Source: an uncultured Selenomonadaceae bacterium
GTDB taxonomy: Bacteria; Bacillota; Negativicutes; Selenomonadales; Selenomonadaceae
DNA length: 34,147 nt
Direction of reading: 5' to 3'
Assembly: GCA_945873565.1 (NCBI GenBank)
Contig: CAMCDL010000006.1
Coordinates: 1-34,147 of the forward strand
A program made the position numbers and the translations under genes. Numbering within the stretch: position 1 is the stretch's first letter; the number at the start of each line of letters is the position of its first letter. Of this stretch, positions 2,430-34,090 are shown piece by piece. Below the pieces are notes generated by a model. The model made no database searches and had not been told where the DNA came from. It saw nothing but the letters and a program-made list of their open reading frames with translations.

Positions 2430-3296
2430 TCAGGTAATATCTATAACGCGATGCATGACACCCAGATGAACCTCTGGGGCAAGACTATCAATTGACTCTG
2501 TAGCCTGCTTTGTACTGCCATCAACACTGCCAGCGCAAACTATTTCATGAAGCATCTTTAGCTCATTCTCATCATTATTCATCAGATTCTTATTATGAAT
2601 TCTGGACAGCACGCTGCTGATTCCCCATCCCCACCAGTTTGATACACCACTCATGAGAATAATGTCTGCACACTCCTGAGCACAGATTACATCCCCATGA
2701 GGCACGTGAGACTCAATAACCTCGCGAAGGCCGCCCATACCGATTTCATTACCGCCATCACCAATAGAGATTGTGGTAATGCCACGCTCCTTGGCAGAAG
2801 CAATGTAGCTGGAGGTATCTACCAGCATCTCATCAATAATTCCTCCACGCATATTGTGATAATGTCCATCAGCAGCCTTGCCTGGGCGCTCGATAGTCAG
2901 GCAATGACTAGGCTTCAGAGCATCCATCTGCCTTGCCATGAATTTATCAGTTTCCTTTTCTGGCAGCAGCACAGCCCGGGCCTTGCAGCCTCTGGAAAGC
3001 AGTGCTTCATTCAAAACCCAGTATGCCTCAAGGTCAGTAAAAAGCCATACAGGAACTCCTGCAGCCTCAAAGGCATAGGCGATATTAGCAGCACCTAAAG
3101 GTCCGTCAGTTTCTCCAGTATATACACCTTCACCCATATTTACTGGAAATCCGGTAAGGACAAAAACACCAGTAGCCTTAGCAATGCTGTCAGTAAGCTC
3201 CTGAACAGGATTAGCTGGTGCGTTGCCAAGAAGGCCTCTGTTGCCTGGATCGAATCTCATGATTTCGTCAAGATTTGCATTATAATCCTTTGACAC
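2430..3296 (-). CDS. DUF4392 protein, D-glutamate cyclase C-terminal-domain homologue
   Basis: A 288-residue DUF4392 protein. This domain is the C-terminal half of mammalian mitochondrial D-glutamate cyclase (DGLUCY), which interconverts D-glutamate and 5-oxo-D-proline. Recognisable family segments are TGFPV with a following ETDGPLGA near the N-terminus and ISIGDGGNEIGMGG mid-protein, which may form a nucleotide- or substrate-binding loop. An upstream TTG at 3302 is in frame, but GGAGGG sits only two bases before it. The GTG at 3296 has ideal spacing of about seven and is preferred. The gene lies about 30 bp after the DUF1445 gene, which supplies the other DGLUCY half. The reaction in bacteria is inferred, not shown here. 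Confidence 0.85.
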   Translation of the reverse strand: MSKDYNANLDEIMRFDPGNRGLLGNAPANPVQELTDSIAKATGVFVLTGFPVNMGEGVYTGETDGPLGAANIAYAFEAAGVPVWLFTDLEAYWVLNEALLSRGCKARAVLLPEKETDKFMARQMDALKPSHCLTIERPGKAADGHYHNMRGGIIDEMLVDTSSYIASAKERGITTISIGDGGNEIGMGGLREVIESHVPHGDVICAQECADIILMSGVSNWWGWGISSVLSRIHNKNLMNNDENELKMLHEIVCAGSVDGSTKQATESIDSLAPEVHLGVMHRVIDIT

Positions 3297-3326
3297 AATC
3301 AATCCCTCCCTAAACCTTTATTTTGA

Positions 3327-4139
3327 TTAAGCCTTAGCCTTTTTAGACTCAAGGAAGTCGTTTACTTCATCATTTTTTACATCAGTGATAAACATGCATC
3401 CTGGTGCATGGGTAATAACTAGCGGCAGCTTCGCGTGCTCAATAACAGCCTGCGGTGTAACACCGCAGCCCCAGAATACAGGAATTTCGCCCTCATAAAC
3501 ATCTACAGCATCGCCATAATCCGGCTTTAAAATATCCTTTATTCCCAGCTCCTCGGGATGACCGATATTTACTGGAGCACCATGAACATTAGGGAATCTG
3601 CCAGTTATCTCATCAGCCAGCTTCGCCTTATCAGGAGTCATAGGACGCATGGATACTACCAGCTCACCCTCAAAAATACCGGCTGGCTCGCACATTGTAG
3701 TGGTCTTAAACATAGGAACATTCCTTCCTTGTGTAATGTGACGAACCTCTACACCAGCCTTCAGCAGAGCCTCCTCAAATGAGAAGCTGCAGCCAATAAG
3801 AAATACGCAGAAATCATCCTGCCAGTATTCAGTAGCATCATGAACCTCTTTAACTTTTATTCCATTCTCATAAATGCAATACTTAGGAATATCTGTAAGA
3901 ATATTTGCGCCCTTGCCCATATCCTGAACCATTGGTGAACCATGGATAACCTCCAGAATTGGACATGGCTTTGGGTTTTTCTTGGCAAATTCCTCAAAAT
4001 CCCTAGCATATTTTTCTGGTAATATTACAAGGTTTGCCTGAGCATAACCATTGCACATACCAGAGGTCTGCCCTTTAATCTCGCCGCTGCGGATTTTCTG
4101 CCAAACCTCCTGTGGTGCCATACTGCTATAATCTGACAT
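3327..4139 (-). CDS. ycsI: DUF1445 putative hydro-lyase (YcsI family), D-glutamate cyclase N-terminal-domain homologue
   Basis: A 270-residue protein of the DUF1445/YcsI family, close to the usual length of about 260. Family-typical segments include GYAQANLVILP (residues 31-41), FLIGCSFSFEEAL, GCGVTPQAV and ITHAPGCMFITD near the C-terminus. In animals this domain is fused in front of DUF4392 in D-glutamate cyclase. In Bacillus subtilis ycsI sits with the kipI/kipA/ycsF 5-oxoprolinase genes. Here it lies 12 bp after pxpC and about 30 bp before the DUF4392 gene, so both associations meet in one operon. The start is ATG with GGGGGA upstream. 'Hydro-lyase' is a database label; cyclase or lactam hydration on the 5-oxoproline/D-glutamate pair is the best inference. 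Confidence 0.88.
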   Translation of the reverse strand: MSDYSSMAPQEVWQKIRSGEIKGQTSGMCNGYAQANLVILPEKYARDFEEFAKKNPKPCPILEVIHGSPMVQDMGKGANILTDIPKYCIYENGIKVKEVHDATEYWQDDFCVFLIGCSFSFEEALLKAGVEVRHITQGRNVPMFKTTTMCEPAGIFEGELVVSMRPMTPDKAKLADEITGRFPNVHGAPVNIGHPEELGIKDILKPDYGDAVDVYEGEIPVFWGCGVTPQAVIEHAKLPLVITHAPGCMFITDVKNDEVNDFLESKKAKA

Positions 4140-4151
4140 CGCTCAATCCCC

Positions 4152-5231
4152 CTATTTTCTTGTTATAACAGGCTGAAGGGACACCTCAAACTGCTGTCCA
4201 GCCACCTTAACATTATAATGCTTTATACCATAGCCGCTCAGTGCTGCTCCAGCAGCTGCAGAAGCTGGCCTGGAGTTTTCAAATACCTCTCTGGCAGCTT
4301 CAAGCTGACCAAGCTTTTCCTGGTATGCTGCCTGAGCCTCCTCCACAGACACCGCCCTGAAGGAAACCTTGGTTCCTGGACCGGATTGAGCCAGCTCTGG
4401 CAGATCAGCCGTGATAACCGTAGCCACCTTAGGATAGCCGCCAGTAGTCTGGTGATCAGACATCATTATGATAGGCTCTCCTCCTGGAGGTACCTGAACC
4501 GAGCCAAAAACAATACCATCACTTACCATATCGCCATCTATCTGACGTTCCAGCTTCTCACCTGCAAGGCGATACCCCATACGGTCTGAATCAGCAGTAA
4601 TTTCGTATGCTCTGCTTAAAAATATCTCTATTGCTCCTGAAGTAAAATAATCATCCTGGGGTCCCAGCACTACTCTGATTATCCTCATATCCTCATGAGC
4701 ATGAGTTCTCTGCAGCCTGCGGCAAGGCTTCAAGCCAGAGAGCATTTCTTTTGCATCAGTCCCTGGCTCACCTGTGCTCAGCACATCACCAGCCCCTAGT
4801 CTTCGTCCATCAAGGCCTCCGGCCCCCAGCTTCAGATTGGTAGAACAGCTTCCCATTACCTCTGGTACATCAATACCGCCAGCCACAGCAATATACCCCC
4901 GCATTCCTTGTGACATACTGGAAAGCTTAAGCACCTGACCAGCTTTTACACGAATAGCTGAATAAGCCTCTGCCGGCTTCCCATCAAGGGTAAGCTTTGG
5001 TTCCCCTCCTGCAGCAGCCACAAGGCAGTCCTCATGAAATTCCAGCTCTGGTCCCATACAGGTACACTCCAGAACTGCACTGCCATAATCATTTCCCACC
5101 AGCAGATTGGCAGCATAGGCTGCCTGCCAATCCATAACGCCTGAAACCTGGACACCACTGGCCTGAAAGCCATACCGGCCCTTATCCTGTACAGTAGTCA
5201 GCATTCCGCCATTAATTACTTTTATCTTCAT
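4152..5231 (-). CDS. pxpC: 5-oxoprolinase subunit PxpC (KipA, biotin-dependent carboxyltransferase-like)
   Basis: A 359-residue KipA/AHS2-type subunit of the bacterial ATP-dependent 5-oxoprolinase PxpABC, which opens 5-oxoproline to glutamate. Family marks are GGMLTTVQDKGRYGFQ at the N-terminus, the GGIDVPEVMGSCSTNLK loop, and SDHQTTGGYPKVATV near residues 258-272. The protein runs slightly beyond a 330-residue KipA. Its last 20 residues (YNVKVAGQQFEVSL) look like the first strands of a biotinyl carrier domain, without a biotinylation Lys. The ATG overlaps the pxpB stop as ATGA, so the two are translationally coupled. Confidence 0.93.
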   Translation of the reverse strand: MKIKVINGGMLTTVQDKGRYGFQASGVQVSGVMDWQAAYAANLLVGNDYGSAVLECTCMGPELEFHEDCLVAAAGGEPKLTLDGKPAEAYSAIRVKAGQVLKLSSMSQGMRGYIAVAGGIDVPEVMGSCSTNLKLGAGGLDGRRLGAGDVLSTGEPGTDAKEMLSGLKPCRRLQRTHAHEDMRIIRVVLGPQDDYFTSGAIEIFLSRAYEITADSDRMGYRLAGEKLERQIDGDMVSDGIVFGSVQVPPGGEPIIMMSDHQTTGGYPKVATVITADLPELAQSGPGTKVSFRAVSVEEAQAAYQEKLGQLEAAREVFENSRPASAAAGAALSGYGIKHYNVKVAGQQFEVSLQPVITRK

Positions 5232-5917
5232 TCTGTCATCGCCTCATACTCAGCCTCTGTAATCGGCTTAAACCTGATACTCTGGCCGGCCCTCAGGAGA
5301 ATAGGCTTCTCCCGATCAGCATCATACAGCTTAAGAGGGGTACGTCCTATTATCTGCCAGCCACCTGGAGACTCTACTGAGTATATGCCTGTCTGCTGTC
5401 CAGCAATACCTACGCTGCCAGCAGGAATCTTGAGCCTTGGAGTCTGTTTTCTAGGTGCTGCAATAGACTTATCCATGCCGCCAAGGTAAGGAAAACCCGC
5501 CACAAAGCCAAGCATATAAATCGGATATTCAGCTTCAGAATGGCGCTTTATTACCTCATCCTCAGAAAGACTATTAAGCTGGGCCACAATGCCCAAATCT
5601 GGTCCATATTCACCGCCATATACCACTGGTATCTCAACCACCTCGCGGTCAGATATTTCAACGCCCTCCAGCCCTTCAGCCAAAATTTTCAGCTGCTCTA
5701 TGAGCCCAGCATAGCCTACAGCCAGTTGATCATACACCACCAGCAGTGAACCGTAAGTTGGCACAAGCTCTACTATACCCTTTAATTTTCCTTCATCGAT
5801 AGCAGCTTCTATAACAGTCCGCATGGCTGCTACCTGGTTATTTATATTAAGATCAATTTCCCGCCCAAATTCAACAGCGATGGCGCTATCGCCTGCAGGA
5901 AGAAAACGTGCACTCAT
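5228..5917 (-). CDS. pxpB: 5-oxoprolinase subunit PxpB (KipI, allophanate-hydrolase-subunit-1-like)
   Basis: A 229-residue PxpB/KipI protein of normal length. Segments typical of the family are LPAGDSAIAVEFG at the start, VYGGEYGPDL, YMLGFVAGFPYLGGMD near the middle, and PRLKIPAGSVGIAGQQTGIY with SPGGWQIIGRTP toward the C-terminus. It forms the catalytic complex with PxpC and PxpA in the cytoplasm. It lies 12 bp after pxpA and overlaps pxpC by four bases. In B. subtilis KipI also inhibits the sporulation kinase KinA, but that role is not implied here. Confidence 0.94.
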   Translation of the reverse strand: MSARFLPAGDSAIAVEFGREIDLNINNQVAAMRTVIEAAIDEGKLKGIVELVPTYGSLLVVYDQLAVGYAGLIEQLKILAEGLEGVEISDREVVEIPVVYGGEYGPDLGIVAQLNSLSEDEVIKRHSEAEYPIYMLGFVAGFPYLGGMDKSIAAPRKQTPRLKIPAGSVGIAGQQTGIYSVESPGGWQIIGRTPLKLYDADREKPILLRAGQSIRFKPITEAEYEAMTE

Positions 5918-5929
5918 AGACTATTCCCC

Positions 5930-6688
5930 TTATCTTAGGCTCTTGACCTCAACACCCTGTTCAATAAGAGCATTTCGCAGCTTTATAACTGTCTCTATTG
6001 CCTTAGGATTATCGCCATGAACACAAATACTATCTGCCCTTATATCGATTTCCTTGCCATTAATGCTGATGACCTTGCCCTCCTTAGCCATCTTTACAGC
6101 TCTGGCAACAGCTGCTTCAGGGTCATGAATTACAGCACCTGGCTTAGAGCGAGCTACCAGGCTGCCGTCATCATTATATGCACGATCAGCAAACACCTCA
6201 CTGGCAGTCTTCAGGCCAATTCTTTCTGCAGCCTCCAGCATTACAGAACCAGCCAATCCCATGAAAATAAGCTCAGGATCTATTGAATATATTGCCTTAC
6301 AGATTCCCTCAGCCAGCTTTTCATCCTTAGCTGCCATATTATAAAGAGCCCCATGAGGCTTCACATGCTGAAGCCTCAGGCCATGGCCCTTAGCAAAAGC
6401 CATAAGGGCACCAACCTGATATTTCACATAGGCACCGGCCTCCTCAGGAGTAACCACCATCTGACGTCTGCCAAAGCCCATAAGGTCTGGGAAGCCTGGA
6501 TGTGCTCCTATGGCCGCGCCATGCTGCTTAGCCAGTGCTACAGTCTTTTCCATAATCAGCGGATCACCTGCATGATAGCCGCAGGCAACATTAACTGATG
6601 TAACGTTCGGGATTACCTCAGCATCCATGCCCATAGTATAGGCACCAAAGCTCTCACCAAGATCACAATTCAAATCCACACAGCTCAT
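5930..6688 (-). CDS. pxpA: 5-oxoprolinase subunit PxpA (LamB/YcsF family)
   Basis: A 252-residue LamB/YcsF protein, the third 5-oxoprolinase subunit. Hallmarks in order are [11 protein letters not shown] (residues 4-14), [26 protein letters not shown] and [10 protein letters not shown], with ICVHGDNP near the end. The conserved His and Asp residues in these segments are the expected active-site or metal ligands. The frame extends to an ATG at 6718, but GGAGG lies six bases before the ATG at 6688. That start gives the canonical short N-terminus, so I chose it. The gene sits 113 bp after the aminotransferase gene, with hairpins between them. Confidence 0.94.
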
Positions 6689-6704
6689 AATAACCTCCGA
6701 AAAC

Positions 6705-6783
6705 TCTAAAAGGGCCAAGCTTCCTCAGCATAATACTGTCAGAAGCACTGGCCCTTTGCAGCATTTGAGCCTTTTATGCTCAA
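6705..6783. other. Two hairpins between the aminotransferase gene and pxpA
   Basis: An inverted repeat AAAGGGCCA/TGGCCCTTT (6709-6717 with 6749-6757) is followed on the minus strand by a short run of four U. A second repeat, TTGAGC/GCTCAA (6765-6770 with 6778-6783), lies nearer the aminotransferase stop. They may attenuate read-through or set mRNA stability. Neither is a strong terminator. Confidence 0.4.
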
Positions 6784-11899: not shown

Positions 11900-12901
11900 T
11901 TACTTGTTCATAGCCTCTGCAACTGCAACTGCTACTGCTACAGACATACCAACCATTGGGTTGTTGCCTGCGCCGATGAGACCCATCATATCTACGTGAG
12001 CAGGTACAGAAGAAGAACCAGCGAACTGAGCATCACCATGCATACGGCCCATAGTATCAGTCATACCATAGGATGCAGGACCTGCAGCCATGTTATCTGG
12101 ATGCAGGGTACGGCCAGTACCGCCACCGGAAGCTACGGAGAAGTACTTCTTGCCCATCTCCAGACGCTCCTTCTTATAGGTACCAGCTACTGGATGCTGG
12201 AAGCGGGTAGGATTAGTGGAGTTACCAGTAATGGAAATACCAACATCCTCCTTGTGCATGATTGCAACACCCTCTGGAACGGAATCTGCACCATAGCAGT
12301 TAACCTTAGAACGAGGGCCATCGGAGTAAGCGATACGCTTAACCTCTTCAACCTCGCCAGTTACATAGTTATACTGAGTCTGTACATAGGTGAAGCCGTT
12401 GATACGGGAAATAATCTGAGCAGCATCCTTGCCGAGACCATTCAGTATTACGCGGAGAGGTTCCTTACGAACCTTGTTTGCGGTCTGAGCGATACCGATT
12501 GCGCCCTCAGCAGCAGCAAAGGACTCGTGACCAGCCAGGAATGCGAAGCAGGTATTCTCCTCGGAGAGAAGCATTGCTGCCAGATTACCATGACCAAGAC
12601 CTACCTTACGATGTGCAGCAACGGAACCAGGTACGCAGAATGCCTGAATACCTTCGCCGATAGCCTTAGCAGCATCAGCAGCAGTCTTTACACCCTTCTT
12701 GATTGCGATTGCAGCACCCAGGGTATATGCCCACTTAGCGTTCTCGAAGCAGATTGGCTGCAGATCAGTTACGATAGCAGCTGGATCAATTCCCTTTTCC
12801 TTACAAACATCAGCAGCAGCCTCAATGGATGCAATGCCATATTTCTTGCAAACTTCGTTAATACCGTCAATACGGCGCTCATAGCCTTCAAATAATGCCA
12901 T
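11900..12901 (-). CDS. GGGtGRT protein (conserved, function unknown)
   Basis: A 333-residue protein of the family named for its GGGtGRT motif, present here as ASGGGTGRTLHPDNM, with the motif at residues 259-265. Other conserved-looking features are an EENTCFAFLAGHESFAAAEG segment (114-133) and several Cys residues (18, 33, 51, 89, 118, 202). There is no signal peptide, so it is cytoplasmic. The biochemical role is not established. It lies 34 bp after a NifU-like scaffold gene in an apparent two-gene operon. As far as I know the two families commonly occur together, which suggests a metal-cofactor role; that is inference. A terminator follows at 11848-11877. Confidence 0.85.
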   Translation of the reverse strand: MALFEGYERRIDGINEVCKKYGIASIEAAADVCKEKGIDPAAIVTDLQPICFENAKWAYTLGAAIAIKKGVKTAADAAKAIGEGIQAFCVPGSVAAHRKVGLGHGNLAAMLLSEENTCFAFLAGHESFAAAEGAIGIAQTANKVRKEPLRVILNGLGKDAAQIISRINGFTYVQTQYNYVTGEVEEVKRIAYSDGPRSKVNCYGADSVPEGVAIMHKEDVGISITGNSTNPTRFQHPVAGTYKKERLEMGKKYFSVASGGGTGRTLHPDNMAAGPASYGMTDTMGRMHGDAQFAGSSSVPAHVDMMGLIGAGNNPMVGMSVAVAVAVAEAMNK

Positions 12902-13713: not shown

Positions 13714-15246
13714 TTACTTCAGGGTTATCAATGGCTTACCGCTCATCTCAGCAGGAATTTCCATACCAGCCAGAGTCAGCATGGTTGGAGCAATGTCGCA
13801 AAGAGCACCATCGCTGGCAATCTCGCTTACACGATCAGAAACCACGATAAATGGAACTGGATTGGTGGTGTGTGCAGTAAATGGTGCACCAGTATCTGGA
13901 TCTACCATCTGATCTGCATTGCCATGATCGGCAGTGATACAAACCTCGCCACCAACCTCGCGAATAGCCTCAACAAAGCGGCCTACGCAAGTATCAACAG
14001 TTTCAACAGCCTTTACAGCTGCCTCAAGAACTCCAGTATGACCTACCATATCTCCGTTTGCATAATTGAGAATAATAAAATCATACTTCCTGGACTTGAT
14101 TGCCTCAACAACCTTGTCAGTTACCTCAATAGCACTCATCTCAGGCTGAAGGTCATAGGTAGCAACCTTAGGAGAAGGAACCAGGATACGGTCCTCACCT
14201 TCGTAAGGCTCCTCAACACCGCCGTTGAAGAAGAAGGTAACATGAGCATATTTCTCAGTCTCGGCAATTCTCAGCTGAGTCATGCCAGCCTTAGAAACAA
14301 TCTCACCCAATGTATTAGTAATAGCCTCAGGAGGGAATGCAACCTTAACATTCAGACCTTCCTCAAACTGAGTCATAGTAGCGAATGCCTTCACTGCACC
14401 CTTACGCTCAAAACCCGCAAACTCAGTATCAGTGAATGCATGAGTCAGCTCGCGGGCACGGTCTGGACGGAAGTTAAAGAAGATAACACCATCAACATCT
14501 TCCATGCCAGCATAACCGCCAACAGCAAATGGAACAACAAATTCGTCAGTCACTTCAGCCTCATAGGAAGCCTTAATGCCTGCCACAGCATCATCTGCTG
14601 CACCACCCTTGCCGTATGCTATAACATCATATGCCTTCTGCACGCGCTCCCAGCGATTATCGCGGTCCATTGCATAATAACGGCCGGATACAGATGCAAC
14701 CTTGCCTACGCCGATTTCCTTGATCTTCTCCTCAAGCTCAGCAACATACTCAGCTGCGGAGGATGGGTCAACATCACGACCATCGAGGAATGCATGAACA
14801 AAAACCTTCTCAATACCCTGCTGCTTTGCAAACTCCAAAAGGCCATAGAGATGCTGGCTGTGGCTATGTACGCCGCCAGGTGAAACAAGGCCCATGAGAT
14901 GGAGAGCACCGCCCTGAGCCTTAACCTCAGAAGCTACGCTAACCAGCGCCTCATTAGTGAAGAAATCGCCATCCTTTATAGACTTTGTTACGCGGGTCAG
15001 AGACTGGTAAATGATGCGGCCAGCACCGATGTTAGTATGACCAACCTCAGAGTTGCCCATCTGCCCATCAGGGAGACCAACATGCTCACCAGAAGCGAAA
15101 ATCTGAGTATTTTTAAAATTCGCCTTCAGCCCGTCAATGACAGGAGTCTTGGCAATCTGGACAGCATTGTTAGGATCATTTACGTCACCACAACCATAGC
15201 CATCCATAATAATCAATGCTACCGGAGCATTAGCTAACTTTGCCAT
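13714..15246 (-). CDS. gpmI: 2,3-bisphosphoglycerate-independent phosphoglycerate mutase
   Basis: A 510-residue Mn2+-dependent enzyme that interconverts 3- and 2-phosphoglycerate. It shows the alkaline-phosphatase-fold metal site MDGYG (residues 14-18), the phospho-serine S66 in MGNSEVGHTNIGAGR, HLMGLVSPGGVHSH, FLDGRDVDP, and the C-terminal metal ligands in CITADHGNADQM with FTAHTTNPVPF. The length is normal for GpmI. The start is ATG with GAGG eight bases upstream, 15 bp after tpiA, as the last gene of pgk-tpiA-gpmI. I see no clear terminator in the 82 bp before the NifU-like gene. Confidence 0.97.
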   Translation of the reverse strand: MAKLANAPVALIIMDGYGCGDVNDPNNAVQIAKTPVIDGLKANFKNTQIFASGEHVGLPDGQMGNSEVGHTNIGAGRIIYQSLTRVTKSIKDGDFFTNEALVSVASEVKAQGGALHLMGLVSPGGVHSHSQHLYGLLEFAKQQGIEKVFVHAFLDGRDVDPSSAAEYVAELEEKIKEIGVGKVASVSGRYYAMDRDNRWERVQKAYDVIAYGKGGAADDAVAGIKASYEAEVTDEFVVPFAVGGYAGMEDVDGVIFFNFRPDRARELTHAFTDTEFAGFERKGAVKAFATMTQFEEGLNVKVAFPPEAITNTLGEIVSKAGMTQLRIAETEKYAHVTFFFNGGVEEPYEGEDRILVPSPKVATYDLQPEMSAIEVTDKVVEAIKSRKYDFIILNYANGDMVGHTGVLEAAVKAVETVDTCVGRFVEAIREVGGEVCITADHGNADQMVDPDTGAPFTAHTTNPVPFIVVSDRVSEIASDGALCDIAPTMLTLAGMEIPAEMSGKPLITLK

Positions 15247-15261
15247 TTGTCTACCTCAAAA

Positions 15262-16014
15262 TCAGAACTTTACGATTGCGCTGAAATCAGCAGCCTTCAG
15301 GGAAGCACCACCAACCAGAGCACCATCAACGTTAGGCTGAGCCATCAGATCCTTAATGGTAGCTGGCTTTACGGAGCCGCCATACTGAATGCGGATTGCA
15401 TCAGCTGCAGTCTGATCAAACTTAGCAGCTACTGCCTCACGGATAGCCTTGCAAACTTCTTCAGCCTGCTCGAAGGTAGCAGTCTTGCCAGTGCCAATAG
15501 CCCAGATTGGCTCATAAGCGATAACCAGCTCAGCAACCTCAGCAGCAGTGAAGCCCTCGAGAGCTGCATTGATCTGTGCTACTACATGATCGATATAGGT
15601 ACCAGCCTCACGAATCTCCAGGGACTCGCCGCAGCAGATAATAGGAGTAATGCCTGCAGCCTTAGCAGCCTTAGCACGCTTGTTAACACCCTCATCGGTC
15701 TCACCAAAATAGTCACGACGCTCGGAATGACCAAGAACTACATACTCTACACCAATCTCTTTGAGCATACCAGTGGAGATCTCGCCAGTGTAAGCTCCCT
15801 TTGGCTCCCAATGAACATTCTGTGCTCCAACATGAATCTTGGTACCCTTTGCAGCGTCTGCTACAGCAGCCAGAGCAGTTGCGGTAGGACAAGCTACAAC
15901 ATCAACCTCAGTTACATCCTCTACCAGTGGAGCCAGAGCCTTAATCAGCTCAACGCCCTCAGCGATAGTGTTGTTCATCTTCCAGTTACCAGCAATAATA
16001 GGTCTACGTGCCAT
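15262..16014 (-). CDS. tpiA: Triosephosphate isomerase
   Basis: A 250-residue TIM barrel interconverting dihydroxyacetone phosphate and glyceraldehyde 3-phosphate. The catalytic residues are in place: N10 and K12 in AGNWKMN, H96 in VVLGHSERR, and E168 in AYEPIWAIGTGKTAT. The phosphate loop IQYGGSV is near the C-terminus. The start is ATG behind AAGGAGG. It follows pgk by 75 bp with a hairpin between, and is followed by gpmI after 15 bp. Confidence 0.98.
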   Translation of the reverse strand: MARRPIIAGNWKMNNTIAEGVELIKALAPLVEDVTEVDVVACPTATALAAVADAAKGTKIHVGAQNVHWEPKGAYTGEISTGMLKEIGVEYVVLGHSERRDYFGETDEGVNKRAKAAKAAGITPIICCGESLEIREAGTYIDHVVAQINAALEGFTAAEVAELVIAYEPIWAIGTGKTATFEQAEEVCKAIREAVAAKFDQTAADAIRIQYGGSVKPATIKDLMAQPNVDGALVGGASLKAADFSAIVKF

Positions 16015-16038
16015 TTTTTATATCCTCCTTAATTATAG

Positions 16039-16069
16039 GGGAAGCTCCATATTTTCAGCGGAGCCTCCC
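16039..16069 (-). other. Hairpin between pgk and tpiA
   Basis: A 10-bp stem with one G-U pair (16039-16048 with 16060-16069) lies between the two genes and has no U-tract. It is more likely an mRNA stability or processing element than a terminator. Confidence 0.5.
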
Positions 16070-16089
16070 AGTTAACATAATAAACTAAA

Positions 16090-17289
16090 TTACTTATCAG
16101 CAATTGCCTCGATACCTGGCATTGGCTTACCTTCGAGGAACTCCAGAGTAGCACCGCCACCAGTGGAGATGTGAGAAATCTTATCGGACAGGCCGGTCTT
16201 GGTCAGAGCTGCAATAGAATCACCGCCACCAACGATGGAGATTGCACCCTGCTCAGTTGCACCAGCAACAGCCTTAGCTACAGCCAGAGTACCCTTGGCA
16301 AACGCATCGAACTCGAATACGCCCATAGGACCATTCCAAACAACAGTCTTTGCGCCAGCCAGAGCCTCGACATACTTCTCAGAGGTCTTAGGGCCACTAT
16401 CAAGAGCCTCCCAGTTCTCTGGAACCTTATCTACATCTACAACCTGAGTGTTTGCATCTGCAGCAAACCTGTCAGCGATAGTCAGGTCAACAGGGAGAAT
16501 AACCTCTACGCCCTTCTCCTTTGCCTTTGCCAGCTGAGCAAGAGCCTCATCGAACTTATCCTTCTCGCAGAGGGAATTGCCGATTGGCAGCCCCTGTGCA
16601 GCATCAAAGGTATGAGCCATGCCGCCGCCGATGATAATCTTATCTACCTTGTCAATCATGTTGGAGATAACGCCAATCTTGTCGGAAACCTTAGCGCCGC
16701 CGATGATAGCAACGAATGGGCGCTGTGGAGCCTCCAGAGTCTGACCGATGAACTTAATCTCCTTCTCCATCAGGAAGCCTGCAACAACCTCCTTGTAAGC
16801 AGCGATACCAGCATTAGCTGCGTGTGCACGATGGGAAACACCAAACGCATCATCAACAGCCAGATCAGCCAAATCAGCCAGCTGCTTAGCAAACTCAGGA
16901 TTATTCTTCTTCTCTTCCTTATGATAACGGAGATTTTCCAGGAGCAGAATCTCACCTGGCTTCAGGTCAGCTGCAGCCTTCTCAGCCTCAGGACCAACGC
17001 AATCAGGAACCCACTTAACATCTACACCCATAACTTCGGATACGCGCTTTACCAGATGCTTAGTTGAGAACTTCTCCTCACGAGCCTCAGTAGGACGGCC
17101 GATGTGGCAAGCCAGGATAACAGCTGCACCCTGCTCTAACAGATAGGATACGGTCTCCTTGGTGCGAACGATACGGGTATCGTTAGTGATGTTCATATTC
17201 TCATCGAATGGAACATTGTAATCCACACGGACGAAAACCTTCTTACCCTTCAGCTCAACGTCCTTGATAGTTTTCTTATTCATACCCAT
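16090..17289 (-). CDS. pgk: Phosphoglycerate kinase
   Basis: A 399-residue monomeric kinase that makes ATP from 1,3-bisphosphoglycerate. The substrate site FVRVDYNVPFDE is near residue 19-30, followed by HIGRPTEAREEKFS and FGVSHRAHA. The nucleotide half has IIGGAKVSDKIGVI, WNGPMGVFE and GGGDSIAAL near the C-terminus. The first ATG has GGAGG eleven bases upstream; a second ATG two codons on is less well placed. It heads the pgk-tpiA-gpmI group, separated from gap by a terminator. Confidence 0.98.
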   Translation of the reverse strand: MGMNKKTIKDVELKGKKVFVRVDYNVPFDENMNITNDTRIVRTKETVSYLLEQGAAVILACHIGRPTEAREEKFSTKHLVKRVSEVMGVDVKWVPDCVGPEAEKAAADLKPGEILLLENLRYHKEEKKNNPEFAKQLADLADLAVDDAFGVSHRAHAANAGIAAYKEVVAGFLMEKEIKFIGQTLEAPQRPFVAIIGGAKVSDKIGVISNMIDKVDKIIIGGGMAHTFDAAQGLPIGNSLCEKDKFDEALAQLAKAKEKGVEVILPVDLTIADRFAADANTQVVDVDKVPENWEALDSGPKTSEKYVEALAGAKTVVWNGPMGVFEFDAFAKGTLAVAKAVAGATEQGAISIVGGGDSIAALTKTGLSDKISHISTGGGATLEFLEGKPMPGIEAIADK

Positions 17290-17345
17290 TTAACAAAATA
17301 CCTCCAGTTCAGTTTTTGAAATAATCGGGGTCTATTTTTATCGTT

Positions 17346-17381
17346 TTAAAAAAGGTCCAGCCCAAACAAAAGGCCGGACCT
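17346..17381 (-). terminator. Terminator between gap and pgk
   Basis: A 10-bp stem with one mismatch (17353-17362 with 17372-17381) is followed on the minus strand by a U-tract. It should let gap be expressed apart from, or more strongly than, pgk-tpiA-gpmI. Confidence 0.8.
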
Positions 17382-17419
17382 CTATGGATCTTAAATATTA
17401 AGTTACTGCCAGGCAGATA

Positions 17420-18433
17420 TTACTTCAGCTCAGCGAAGTACTTAATGGTGCGAACCATCTGGCTGGTGTAGGAGTTCTCGTTGTCATACCAGGAAACAAC
17501 CTGAACCTGAGTCAGACCGTCACCAACAGGGCTAACCATGGTCTGGGTAGCATCGAACAGGGAACCGTACTTCATGCCGATGATATCGCTGGAAACGATC
17601 TCGTCCTCGTTGTAGCCGAAGGACTCAGTAGCCTGTGCCTTCATAGCTGCATTAACCTGATCAACAGTTACCTCACCCTTAACTACAGCGTAGAGCAGAG
17701 TGGTGGAACCGGTAGGGGTAGGAACGCGCTGAGCAGCACCGATCAGCTTGCCATCCAGCTCTGGGATTACCAGGCCGATAGCCTTTGCAGCACCAGTGGA
17801 GTTAGGAACGATGTTTACAGCAGCTGCACGGGAACGACGGAGGTCACCCTTGCGCTGTGGGCCATCCAGAGTCATCTGGTCGCCAGTGTAAGCATGGATA
17901 GTAGCCATGATACCGGACTGGATAGGAGCCAGATCATTCAGAGCCTTAGCCATTGGAGCCAGGCAGTTGGTGGTGCAGGAAGCAGCGGAGATAACCTTGT
18001 CTTCCTTAGTCAGTACAGTGTGGTTTACGTTGTAAACAACAGTAGGGAGGTCCTTACCTGCTGGAGCAGAGATAACAACCTTCTTTGCGCCTGCCTCGAG
18101 ATGAGCAGAAGCCTTCTCCTTGGAGGTGTAGAAGCCGGTGCACTCCAGAACAACATCTACATCATGCTTAGCCCAAGGAATCTCCTGAGCCTTAGCGCAA
18201 GCGTAAATCTTGATCTCCTTGCCGTTTACAGTAATGGAATCCTCACCAGCGGATACAGTATCAGCATACTTGTACTTGCCCTGGGAAGAGTCATACTTCA
18301 GCAGATGAGCGAGCATCTTAGGGGAAGTGAGGTCGTTGATTGCAACAACTTCATAACCCTCAGCATCGAACATCTGACGGAATGCCAGACGACCAATACG
18401 ACCGAAACCATTAATAGCTACTTTTACTGCCAT
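17420..18433 (-). CDS. gap: Glyceraldehyde-3-phosphate dehydrogenase, type I
   Basis: A 337-residue phosphorylating GAPDH. It has the Rossmann motif INGFGRIGR (7-15) and D34 in AINDLT, which fits NAD+ preference. The active-site C153 is in SAASCTTNC, with H180 in [18 protein letters not shown] is near the C-terminus. The start is ATG. A purine- and G-rich stretch lies upstream, read GGGGGTA on the minus strand. It is transcribed from its own promoter with a 120-nt structured leader and ends at a terminator before pgk. No cggR-type regulator is in the window. Confidence 0.98.
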
Positions 18434-29934: not shown

Positions 29935-32127
29935 ATGCTTGCTGAAAATATTAGCAGCTCCATTGCTAAGGAGCTGAAGATTAACCCCCATCAGAGTGAT
30001 GCTGTTATAAAGCTTCTGGATGAGGGCAATACCATCCCATTTATTTCACGTTACCGCAAGGAGGCAACTGGAGAGCTTGACGAGGAGAAAATACGCCTTA
30101 TCAGCGAACGGCTTACCTATCTGAGGAATTTTGTCAAGCGCCAGGAGGAAATACTTGGCCGCATCGAGGAGCAGGGAAAGCTTACCGATGAACTCAGGGC
30201 TGCCATTGAAGCCACTGCCAAGCTCCAGGAGCTGGAGGATATATATCTTCCCTATAAGCAGAAAAAACGTACCAGAGCCTCTATCGCAAAAGAAAAAGGT
30301 CTTGAACCTCTATCAGCTGCTATGCTGCTGCAGAGTGAAAGAAAAGGAGATGCCAAGGAATACGCCAGCCGCTTCATCAATGAAGAAAAGGGAGTAGCCA
30401 GTGCTGACGATGCCCTTGCAGGAGCCATGGATATCATTGCTGAGGCAATCTCCGAGGATGCAGCCTTGAGGCAGCAGCTCCGCCGCTTCTTATGGAACAA
30501 TGCCTTTTTAATTACTTCCCTTGACAGTGAAAAGGAAGAAACTGAGCTAGGACAGACCTACCTCATGTATAAGGAATACCGTGAGCTGGTCCGGACCCTT
30601 CCTTCCCACAGGGTTCTTGCTATCAACCGAGGAGAGAAGCAGGAATGCCTGAAGGTCAAGCTGGAGGCTGATACTGACTCCATAATCAATAAAATAGAAT
30701 CAAGCTGGCTGAAGGATGAATCCATATTTACAGCATACATAAAAGATGCTATTACCGACAGCTGGAAGCGCCTTATTGCTCCGTCCTTAGAAAGAGAAAT
30801 CCGCAGCCAGCTTACCGAGGATGCCGAAAAACAGGCTATTCATATTTTCGGCACTAATCTCAAGCAGCTTCTGCTGCAGGCGCCTCTTGCAGGCCATACT
30901 GTAATGGGTCTTGACCCAGGCTACCGTACAGGCTGCAAAATGGCCATAGTCAACCCTACCGGCCACGTTATTGATCATGGCGTATTATATATCACCCATG
31001 GAGAAAAGGGAGCTTCCGAGTCAGCAAAAAAGGCCCTGGCTCTTATTAAGAAGCACAACGTTACCCTCATTTCCATAGGAAATGGTACCGCCTCCCTGGA
31101 AACTGAGGAATTTGCAGCCAAGCTGATCAAGGATAACAGCCTGAATGTCCACTACATTATTACTAATGAGGCTGGTGCATCAGTATATTCCGCATCACCG
31201 CTGGCCAAGGAAGAGCTTCCAGACTATGATGTTACCATCCGTGGTGCCGTATCCATTGCCAGACGAGTTCAGGATCCCCTGGCTGAGCTAGTAAAAATTG
31301 AACCTAAGGCCATTGGAGTCGGCCAGTATCAGCATGATGTAAATCAGAAGGAGCTGTCTGGTTCTCTGGATCAGACCATAGAATCAGCAGTTAACCATGT
31401 AGGTGTAGAGCTTAACACAGCCTCTCCAGCTCTTTTAAAGCATATTGCTGGTATTAACGCCACCATCGCCAAAAATATTGTAGCCTACCGCAATGAAAAC
31501 GGTGCCTTCAAATCCCGCAGGGAGCTGCTGAAGGTTGCCCGTTTAGGCAATGCAGCCTTTACCCAGTGTGCTGGTTTCCTTCGCATTGCCGGAGCAGAAT
31601 TTCCACTGGATAACACCCCTGTACATCCCGAGTCATATCCCCTAGCTGAAGCCGTATTAAAAAAGCTTAACGCCAGCCTGGATATGCTGACTGACAAAAA
31701 GCAGCTCGAGCTTCTGCAAGCAAAGATTAAGCTGGCTGACCCAGAAAAACTGGCCCATGACCTATCTGCAGGTGTCCCTACCGTAAAGGATATACTTGAT
31801 GCACTGGCTAAACCTGGGCGGGATCCACGTGAGGATCTGCCAGCACCCCTTACCAGAAAGGCAATTGTAAAGCTATCTGACATAAAACCGGGGACTATTA
31901 TGAAAGGCACTGTCCGTAATATCACCGATTTCGGTGTGTTTGTTGATATAGGTATAAAAACAGCTGGCCTCATACATATTTCCGAACTCAGTACTCGCCG
32001 AGTAAAGCATCCTCTTGATGTAGTATCAGTTGGCGACATCCTTGATGTACTTGTCATCACAGTTGACGAAAAAAGAGGCCGCATCGGCCTTAGCCTAAAG
32101 CAGCTTCCTAAGGAGGCCATATCATGA
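29935..32127 (+). CDS. tex: Tex-family RNA-binding transcription accessory protein
   Basis: A 730-residue Tex protein. In order it has the N-terminal helical region with IPFISRYRKEATGELDEEKI, the YqgF/RNase H-like domain around GLDPGYRTGCKMAI (near residues 325-340), helix-hairpin-helix repeats around LLKHIAGINATIAKNIVAYR, and a C-terminal S1 domain (about 652-722) with GTVRNITDFGVFVDIG and LIHISEL. The length is typical. Tex binds nucleic acid and affects transcription; its precise job is not settled. The start is ATG with AAAGGA upstream. Its stop overlaps the CobT start by four bases (ATGA), so the two are translationally coupled. Confidence 0.97.
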   Translation: MLAENISSSIAKELKINPHQSDAVIKLLDEGNTIPFISRYRKEATGELDEEKIRLISERLTYLRNFVKRQEEILGRIEEQGKLTDELRAAIEATAKLQELEDIYLPYKQKKRTRASIAKEKGLEPLSAAMLLQSERKGDAKEYASRFINEEKGVASADDALAGAMDIIAEAISEDAALRQQLRRFLWNNAFLITSLDSEKEETELGQTYLMYKEYRELVRTLPSHRVLAINRGEKQECLKVKLEADTDSIINKIESSWLKDESIFTAYIKDAITDSWKRLIAPSLEREIRSQLTEDAEKQAIHIFGTNLKQLLLQAPLAGHTVMGLDPGYRTGCKMAIVNPTGHVIDHGVLYITHGEKGASESAKKALALIKKHNVTLISIGNGTASLETEEFAAKLIKDNSLNVHYIITNEAGASVYSASPLAKEELPDYDVTIRGAVSIARRVQDPLAELVKIEPKAIGVGQYQHDVNQKELSGSLDQTIESAVNHVGVELNTASPALLKHIAGINATIAKNIVAYRNENGAFKSRRELLKVARLGNAAFTQCAGFLRIAGAEFPLDNTPVHPESYPLAEAVLKKLNASLDMLTDKKQLELLQAKIKLADPEKLAHDLSAGVPTVKDILDALAKPGRDPREDLPAPLTRKAIVKLSDIKPGTIMKGTVRNITDFGVFVDIGIKTAGLIHISELSTRRVKHPLDVVSVGDILDVLVITVDEKRGRIGLSLKQLPKEAIS

Positions 32128-34049
32128 GCCTTCTCACTGAAACTCTTAACAGAATAACTCCGTCTGATAAAGAAGCCGCCAATGCCATGTCATCAAAGCT
32201 CAATTATTTTGCAGGAAATGGCCTTGGTGCAATTCAAGATATAATGGCAACCTATGCCGGCATAACCGGAACAAGCCTTCCAGAAATTCCTGATAAGGCC
32301 ACCATTATCTGCTGCGCTGACCATGGAGTAGCAACCCAGCAGGTAAGCGCCTACCCACCAGAAACCACTCTGATGATGACCACCAATTACCTTATTTCCA
32401 AGGGCGCAGCGGCCAATGCCTTTGCAAATTTTGCTGATTCAGAGCTTATTGTTGCGGACTTAGGAATAAATGCAGAAACCAGTGAGCTGCCAGGACTTCT
32501 TAATATGCGTCTTGGCAGAGGAACTGCTGATTCATCCCAGGGACCTGCCATGACAAGAGAACAAGCAATAACATCCATCGAGCACGGTATTACCCTGGCC
32601 AGAGAGTGCTGTGCTAAAGGCATCCGTATTTTTCTTCCTGGAGAAATGGGTATATCCAATACCACTGCAAGTGCAGCTATAACAGCAGCTATATGCCAGC
32701 TGCCAGCAGAGAGCTGTACTGGACGAGGCACTAATATATCTGATCAGAGACTTATTAGAAAAATTGCTATTGTAAATAAAATTATTGAAATAAACCGTCC
32801 TGACCCAGCTGATGCTATTGACGTATTAGCCAAGGTTGGCGGTTTTGAGCTAGGTGCCATAGCAGGTATAATTCTAGGTGCTGCAGCTGAAAAAGCTCTA
32901 ACAATCCTGGACGGCTTCAATAGCAGTGCAGCTGCTCTCATAGCCTGCACACTATGTCCCACTGCATCTGATTACCTTGCAGCCTCTCACATGGCCGGAG
33001 AAAGCGGTCATCCACATATTATGAAAAAACTTGGACTTCGCCCCGTAATGCATCTTGATCTGAAGCTGGGGGAGGCTATAGGATCATCCCTTATGGCTGA
33101 TATTCTCTGCATGGGATTAGCAGCAAATCTGAAGCTTAATGCCCTTGAAGCCGGGAGGCTGCAAGCCTCTGACATAGCAAAAAGCCTGGAGCACGTAGAA
33201 ATAGATAGGAAACATATAACCCTTACAGACAAAACCTTTAACTATTACACTAACACCATGGGTGAACTCAGCTTATCAGATATGGAGGAATGCCAGAATC
33301 GTATCAATAGCCTGGCCAAGCCTATAATGAGTCTGGGAAAAATTGAACAAATCGCAACTACAATAGCAGGTGTCAGCTGCAATCCCCTGCCAGACAACAA
33401 TCTTCGGCGCAAATTATTTATCTTTAAGCAGGACGGGCTAGAAAGCGACCGTTTTCTTATGCTAATCCAGGCTGTATTTATGGATGCTTTCCGCAGCCAC
33501 AGCGATACAGAAATCAAAATTGCTCATCTGTCTGCAGAATCCTCTGGTATGGACTCATTTGAGTTTGGACGCAGTCTTGCTGAGGATGCATCACTTAATA
33601 CAGAGCTTATCGGCTTGTGCATATTAGATGAAAATCAATCTGCTACAGCTGCTATCACAAATTCACTGATAGATGAAACTGGCAAGCTGCGCTGGGACGA
33701 AAACGATTTTCTCCGCCATATCCCTGAGGAATATCAGAACCAGGCTTCGGCTGTGCTTGGTGCCATGCTGGCTGCAGCCCATAACAGATGCCTAGTAGTA
33801 ATAGATGACGCAGCCACAGCTGCAATTGCCCGTTACGCAATAATTATCTGTCCAGAACTTAGATACTTCCTGATGCAGGCTGCACCAGATATTTACCAGC
33901 TGGACTGCAAGATAAGCAGCGGCCTCAATGCTATGCTCAGCTTCCGTCTTATAGATGCATCCATGCATATGCTAAATGATATGCGAACCTTCACTGATAC
34001 CCAGGTACCAGTTGCAAATGACGGTCCTGGTCTTGGCAAACAGGATTAA
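32124..34049 (+). CDS. cobT: Tandem CobT-CobT-like fusion, lower-ligand-activating phosphoribosyltransferase
   Basis: A 641-residue protein, nearly twice the normal CobT length of about 350. CobT transfers phosphoribose from nicotinate mononucleotide to the lower-ligand base of cobamides. The first half is a full CobT: CADHGVATQQVSAYP (64-78), GEMGISNTTASAA (173-185), KVGGFELGAIAGI (237-249), ILDGFNSSAA (261-270) and E317 in LDLKLGEAIG, the catalytic-Glu position. The second half starts over with LAKPIMSLGKIEQIATTIAG (398-417, the CobT N-terminal motif). It ends with LDCKISSG...RLIDASMHMLNDMRTF, the CobT C-terminus, but has Ser in place of the catalytic Glu and no GEMG loop. The closest known design is the heterodimer ArsAB. 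The frame is continuous, so it is not a simple frameshift. Confidence 0.88.
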   Translation: MSLLTETLNRITPSDKEAANAMSSKLNYFAGNGLGAIQDIMATYAGITGTSLPEIPDKATIICCADHGVATQQVSAYPPETTLMMTTNYLISKGAAANAFANFADSELIVADLGINAETSELPGLLNMRLGRGTADSSQGPAMTREQAITSIEHGITLARECCAKGIRIFLPGEMGISNTTASAAITAAICQLPAESCTGRGTNISDQRLIRKIAIVNKIIEINRPDPADAIDVLAKVGGFELGAIAGIILGAAAEKALTILDGFNSSAAALIACTLCPTASDYLAASHMAGESGHPHIMKKLGLRPVMHLDLKLGEAIGSSLMADILCMGLAANLKLNALEAGRLQASDIAKSLEHVEIDRKHITLTDKTFNYYTNTMGELSLSDMEECQNRINSLAKPIMSLGKIEQIATTIAGVSCNPLPDNNLRRKLFIFKQDGLESDRFLMLIQAVFMDAFRSHSDTEIKIAHLSAESSGMDSFEFGRSLAEDASLNTELIGLCILDENQSATAAITNSLIDETGKLRWDENDFLRHIPEEYQNQASAVLGAMLAAAHNRCLVVIDDAATAAIARYAIIICPELRYFLMQAAPDIYQLDCKISSGLNAMLSFRLIDASMHMLNDMRTFTDTQVPVANDGPGLGKQD

Positions 34050-34061
34050 AAACAACACAAA

Positions 34062-34090
34062 AAAGACACCCAATCGGGTGTCTTTCTTCT
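34062..34090. terminator. Bidirectional terminator shared by cobT and the rRNA operon
   Basis: A perfect 10-bp stem AAAGACACCC/GGGTGTCTTT with loop AATC (34062-34085) is followed by a T-rich run on the plus strand. On the minus strand it is followed by six U ending the 5S rRNA transcript. Confidence 0.85.

Follow-up and report, generated by a model that had tools for sequence, protein, structure and literature searches.

The locus raises the question of whether a single polypeptide carrying two copies of a CobT-family domain is an unusual CobT, a fused form of the ArsAB enzyme of two polypeptides, or an artefact. The protein of 641 aa is encoded on the forward strand, as are all features of the locus described here, at 32124-34049 of the window (the whole stretch of 34,147 nucleotides that was analysed). 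Its frame runs without interruption from the ATG at 32124 to the TAA at 34047-34049, as a first, sequence-only reading of this DNA had described it, and is fused in relatives too. A ribosome-binding site, AAGGAGG (32110-32116), lies within the 3′ end of the upstream gene, and a terminator-like hairpin, which is a consensus match only, is found 3′ of the ORF at 34062-34085.

First, we examined the two halves of the protein. Half A is a complete CobT-family protein with Glu at position 317, as had been proposed: the whole protein scores 356 bits against the TIGR03160 CobT equivalog, for which the cut-off is 319.3, and the best stretch is in half A. Half B alone matches DBI_PRT (Pfam E 3.6e-15) and has ArsB as its best PDB match (E 1.2e-20). 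The claim of a second CobT-like copy is thus upheld, but its bounds are approximately aa 386 to 640 and not 390-620. In the alignment, half A starts with a degenerate N-arm devoid of the KPxxSLG motif (aa 1-49; 32124-32270), followed by the catalytic core (aa 65-322; 32316-33089) with ADHGV, SAYP...M, GEMGISNTT, GRGT and the LGE that holds the catalytic Glu317. A linker (aa 344-385; 33153-33278) leads to the N-arm of half B (aa 386-418; 33279-33377), SLAKPIMSLGKIEQIA, which harbours AKPIMSLGKIE at aa 398-408 and whose KP motif and Glu are kept in almost every ArsB and fused protein. In the eroded core of half B (aa 419-594; 33378-33905), the GEMG and GRGT loops are gone, GEMG being replaced by CILD, and about 80 ArsB core positions are missing. 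Ser599 (33918-33920) is the counterpart of the catalytic Glu, and the C-arm (aa 604-640; 33933-34043) carries LNDMRTF near aa 617-623 and terminates in the ArsB-type VANDGPG tail. The LNDMRTF motif, the serine and the degraded GEMG loop are therefore those seen in the earlier reading. Within the linker, a TDKTFxxYxxTM motif (33189-33276, aa 356-384) is conserved across Selenomonadaceae, which is unusual in a linker.

A complete catalytic site can thus be recognised by sequence in the A part only. The layout of CobT, with a core and both terminal arms on each chain and two sites, is not that of this protein, as half A has neither KPxxSLG nor the MATF arm and half B has no core motifs; nor are there two separate polypeptides as in ArsAB, since both halves reside in one frame. 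The protein is a fused variant of ArsAB and not a standard tandem ArsAB. Indeed, a joint tree unites all A halves in one clade, Sporomusa ArsA included, and all B halves in another that includes ArsB (both 100*). The C-terminal half of the 641-aa protein aligns best to ArsB, and the possibility that it would align to no CobT or ArsB sequence is thereby refuted. In a tree of the A cores, all ArsA-type halves are separate from CobT (98*). The AlphaFold model of the whole chain is confident (pLDDT 90, pTM 0.92) and its top fold matches are ArsAB crystal chains (TMt 0.95), while for half B modelled alone the ArsB crystal chains match first. The pTM suggests that the relative pose of A and B is fixed in the predicted structure. 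Altogether, the trees and the fold matches bear out the suggestion of a fused ArsAB-type enzyme; this variant is real, family-wide and structurally coherent.

Both halves are orthologous to ArsAB of Sporomusa ovata (PDB 4hdk, 4hdm, 4hdn, 4hdr, 4hds), in the order A then B. As in the fusion, A carries the catalytic Glu and B the KP and LNDM arms, and the fold of the A half is near identical (TMt 0.95). The fusion differs in being one chain instead of two, in a tex-linked operon, and while Sporomusa ArsB partly keeps its GEMG/GRGT loops, the fused half B has lost them together with the core positions mentioned above. Half A also resembles the CobT homodimer (Salmonella enterica; TIGR03160) in its fold, its Glu317 and its GEMG/GRGT motifs, but the fusion joins two different halves in one chain, shows a single active site by sequence and lacks the terminal arm motifs in half A. 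The BluB/CobT2 fusion of Propionibacterium freudenreichii (PMC4657239) likewise places a CobT-family domain in a fusion protein; its partner is the DMB synthase BluB, whereas the partner here is a second CobT-family copy.

Next to the single protein, an alignment of 65 fused proteins and 33 concatenated split pairs (98 in total) informs on how the two halves have changed. The catalytic Glu is present in A in 98/98, while B holds the N-arm KP in 97/98 and the C-arm TF in 97/98, the remaining one having SF. Among the 65 fused proteins, none has KP in A, the MATF arm in A or GEMG in B. Only six split pairs retain the A C-arm motif, and in each of them the B site looks intact; the A KP motif is retained in 7/7 pairs with an intact B site against 3/91 without, for traits that were defined after the alignment was seen. 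A phylogenetic pair test for a tie between loss of the A arms and loss of the B site was not significant (three pairs, none opposite; few independent events). Among 25 family-type fused members, identity reaches 58% in the A core, 52% in the B N-arm and 51% in the B C-arm, but only 30% in the B core, 30% in the A N-arm and 18% in the A C-end. Judged from these aligned sequences, half A has kept its core and lost its N- and C-terminal arm motifs, while half B has kept its arms and its core is eroding; the conservation of the motifs points to purifying selection. This complementary decay fits a single composite active site, because the base pocket of CobT uses both chains.

In nine relatives half B is reduced to approximately its two arms. 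Five genomes are in genus g5 (L141, L161, L184-L186; frames of 484-512 aa), three in g18 (L142, L182, L183; 398-439 aa) and one in g12 (L187). Neither the g18 proteins nor g12 proteins such as L136 have the N-arm of half A. No further DBI_PRT protein is encoded in G005, a g5 genome. The best tree needs three changes to account for the arms-only B, but a single clade is not rejected (AU p 0.35), so that a multiple origin is not statistically proven.

Taken together, these data make it highly probable that the protein is a single-chain ArsAB with one active site, in which A would be catalytic and B a dead copy whose arms complete the base pocket of A. As a nicotinate mononucleotide:base phosphoribosyltransferase, the enzyme would activate the base that becomes the lower ligand of cobamides. 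Half A (ArsA) would bind the phosphoribosyl donor and carry out catalysis via Glu317, and half B (ArsB) would provide its N- and C-terminal arms to the pocket, like the partner chain in CobT; the chain would thus have one active site, where a CobT homodimer has two. The small domain of the neighbouring CobT subunit, composed of N- and C-terminal segments, covers the pocket, and in Sporomusa ArsAB, ArsA alone is catalytic. After the death of one site, the live core would still need the arms of its partner while the dead core would need nothing, and the observed pattern of motif loss is what the arm-over-pocket arrangement of CobT predicts. In SeCobT the base pocket is indeed built from both chains, E317 being the general base and E174 contacting the ribose (PMC9561151). 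By analogy, the B arms probably contact the A pocket. The protein is presumably active, and its natural bases would include phenols such as p-cresol. The sequence-only reading had proposed one active site and a second half reshaped for structure or base choice. The complementary motif loss agrees with the first part, but the data favour a half B pared down to what completes the site over one reshaped for base choice. SeCobT positions 80/88/175, engineered for phenol use, were considered as a phenol signature and discarded, the residues Y, M and M being also found in the aligned Thermus thermophilus CobT.

A less likely explanation, which nonetheless deserves consideration, is that of an ordinary benzimidazole- or purine-activating CobT, with half B a mere structural remnant and phenols not being natural substrates. 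The score of the 641-aa protein above the CobT equivalog cut-off is consistent with it. Moreover, the genome of the window encodes no other DBI_PRT (CobT-family) protein, so that the fused protein has to activate any base at hand, and DMB is also bound by Sporomusa ArsAB (PDB title 4hdr). Against this, the two halves belong to the clades of ArsA and ArsB and not with CobT, and preservation of both arms, at about 52% identity and even in the arms-only relatives, is not expected of a remnant. Nor was an anaerobic benzimidazole (Bza) route detected in the host: the single ThiC-family protein of the genome scores as ThiC and below the BzaB cut-off, and no Bza-type ThiC paralogue was found in this genome. 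One contig carries the corrin-ring genes cbiA, C, D, G, H and J and another cobQ, cbiB and cobS, and de novo cobamide synthesis is therefore likely. HydG is encoded (931 bits), and this enzyme releases p-cresol from tyrosine, as does ThiH (PMC9046217). The genome also has three methylmalonyl-CoA mutase-type matches. A phenolyl cobamide in the host is thus a reasonable prediction for the single-chain ArsAB, with p-cresol as the putative natural lower ligand.

Half B could also be a regulatory or docking domain, for instance for CobS or for base selection, located outside of the active site. The unusual conservation of the TDKTFxxYxxTM linker and the retention of part of the B core in most family members would be in line with such a role. 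We consider it improbable, as what B conserves are the two terminal arms missing from half A, and little else remains in the arms-only relatives.

The distribution of the gene bears on a last explanation. A match is present in 145/151 Selenomonadaceae genomes, almost always as one open frame spanning both halves, and in all 98 genomes of the family that are ≥90% complete and ≤5% contaminated; an order-level sample was also checked. Among named species, Schwartzia succinivorans (DSM 10502) and Anaerovibrio lipolyticus (DSM 3074) carry the fusion. An error of assembly or annotation, or a pseudogene in decay, is hardly credible as an explanation of the fusion despite in-frame stops or a frame break in a few relatives, as the same fused frame is found in most of the 145 matching genomes, on long and single-contig assemblies, the fused form recurs in other families and its motif conservation points to purifying selection. 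The artefact, which the earlier reading had named as a way for its claim to fail, is refuted by this recurrence in independent assemblies, the search having retrieved the fusion from well over a hundred genomes. The fusion is the normal form across Selenomonadaceae. The fused protein is the only DBI_PRT protein in 24/25 genomes of the family checked; the sole case among the sampled members of a separate CobT-family gene beside the fused one is G024:C19:111111-112100. The interrupted genes, in G001, G065, G070 and G081, are either errors or pseudogenes.

In other Negativicutes families, either the fused or the split form occurs. Sporomusa, Veillonella and Pelosinus have two separate genes that are adjacent and often overlapping. 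The fused proteins do not form one clade: six changes are needed by parsimony, at least four of them forced by starred branches, and a single clade is rejected (AU p=0.0016). The fusion therefore arose repeatedly in Negativicutes, although tree error with divergent rows is possible. In L012, arsA and arsB are in the same frame with one TAG between them, located within the next ribosome-binding site, and thus one base change would join the two genes. L012:7021-7060 belongs to a MAG labelled Acholeplasmataceae with Negativicutes-type arsA and arsB, and the contig may be misbinned.

From these observations, we can propose a wider scenario, whose chances we judge to be about even. The Negativicutes would have frozen successive stages on the path from a two-site homodimer to a one-site chain: duplication, division of labour, repeated fusion, reduction of the dead half until little but its arms was left and, in the g18 frames of approximately 390-440 aa, loss of the N-arm of half A. 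The g18 chain, with the size of a CobT monomer and the order core/N-arm/C-arm, would be in effect a rearranged CobT made from two paralogues, and the Selenomonadaceae a large unrecognised group of phenolyl-cobamide makers. Such a sequence set is a rare graded series from a shared-active-site enzyme to a chain with a single site, and allows a prediction of the parts of a dead partner that are needed.

A survey of ArsAB defined arsAB as adjacent cobT genes and assigned phenolyl cobamides to 27 species (PMC6461909), a definition that is blind to a fused gene. No Selenomonadaceae appear in the species table of PMC8123684, and we found no published description of a fused ArsAB in the mostly open-access literature searched. 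Should the fused form act as an ArsAB, a common gut and rumen family would join the list of phenolyl-cobamide organisms, which bears on the B12 forms circulating there.

Finally, the ORF is preceded directly by tex (29935-32127), whose stop overlaps the arsAB ATG by four bases (ATGA, 32124-32127). Coupling to tex, in the absence of another cobamide gene in the window, had been pointed out as unusual. The overlap is real and conserved: tex is often directly 5′ of the fused gene in Selenomonadaceae, mostly with the 4-base overlap, and was found upstream of arsAB in none of the other Negativicutes families sampled. This adjacency is not universal in the family, Schwartzia (L005), for example, being without it. 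A scan of 30 window ORFs gave no further cobamide gene, but the corrin-ring genes are elsewhere in the genome, and Rfam, queried for a cobalamin riboswitch, gave no match at the gathering threshold in the window or in the two cobamide contigs. Co-transcription of tex and arsAB is likely and need not imply a functional link between them. Elsewhere in the window, on the reverse strand, what is probably an operon for the recycling of 5-oxoproline/D-glutamate (2430-6718) encodes in consecutive genes a PxpA-like LamB/YcsF protein, two PxpB/C-like proteins with carboxyltransferase domains and two proteins of the D-glutamate cyclase type. A glycolytic cluster (gpmI, tpi, pgk, gap) is found at 13714-18433, also on the reverse strand, with a GGGtGRT protein encoded near it at 11900-12901.
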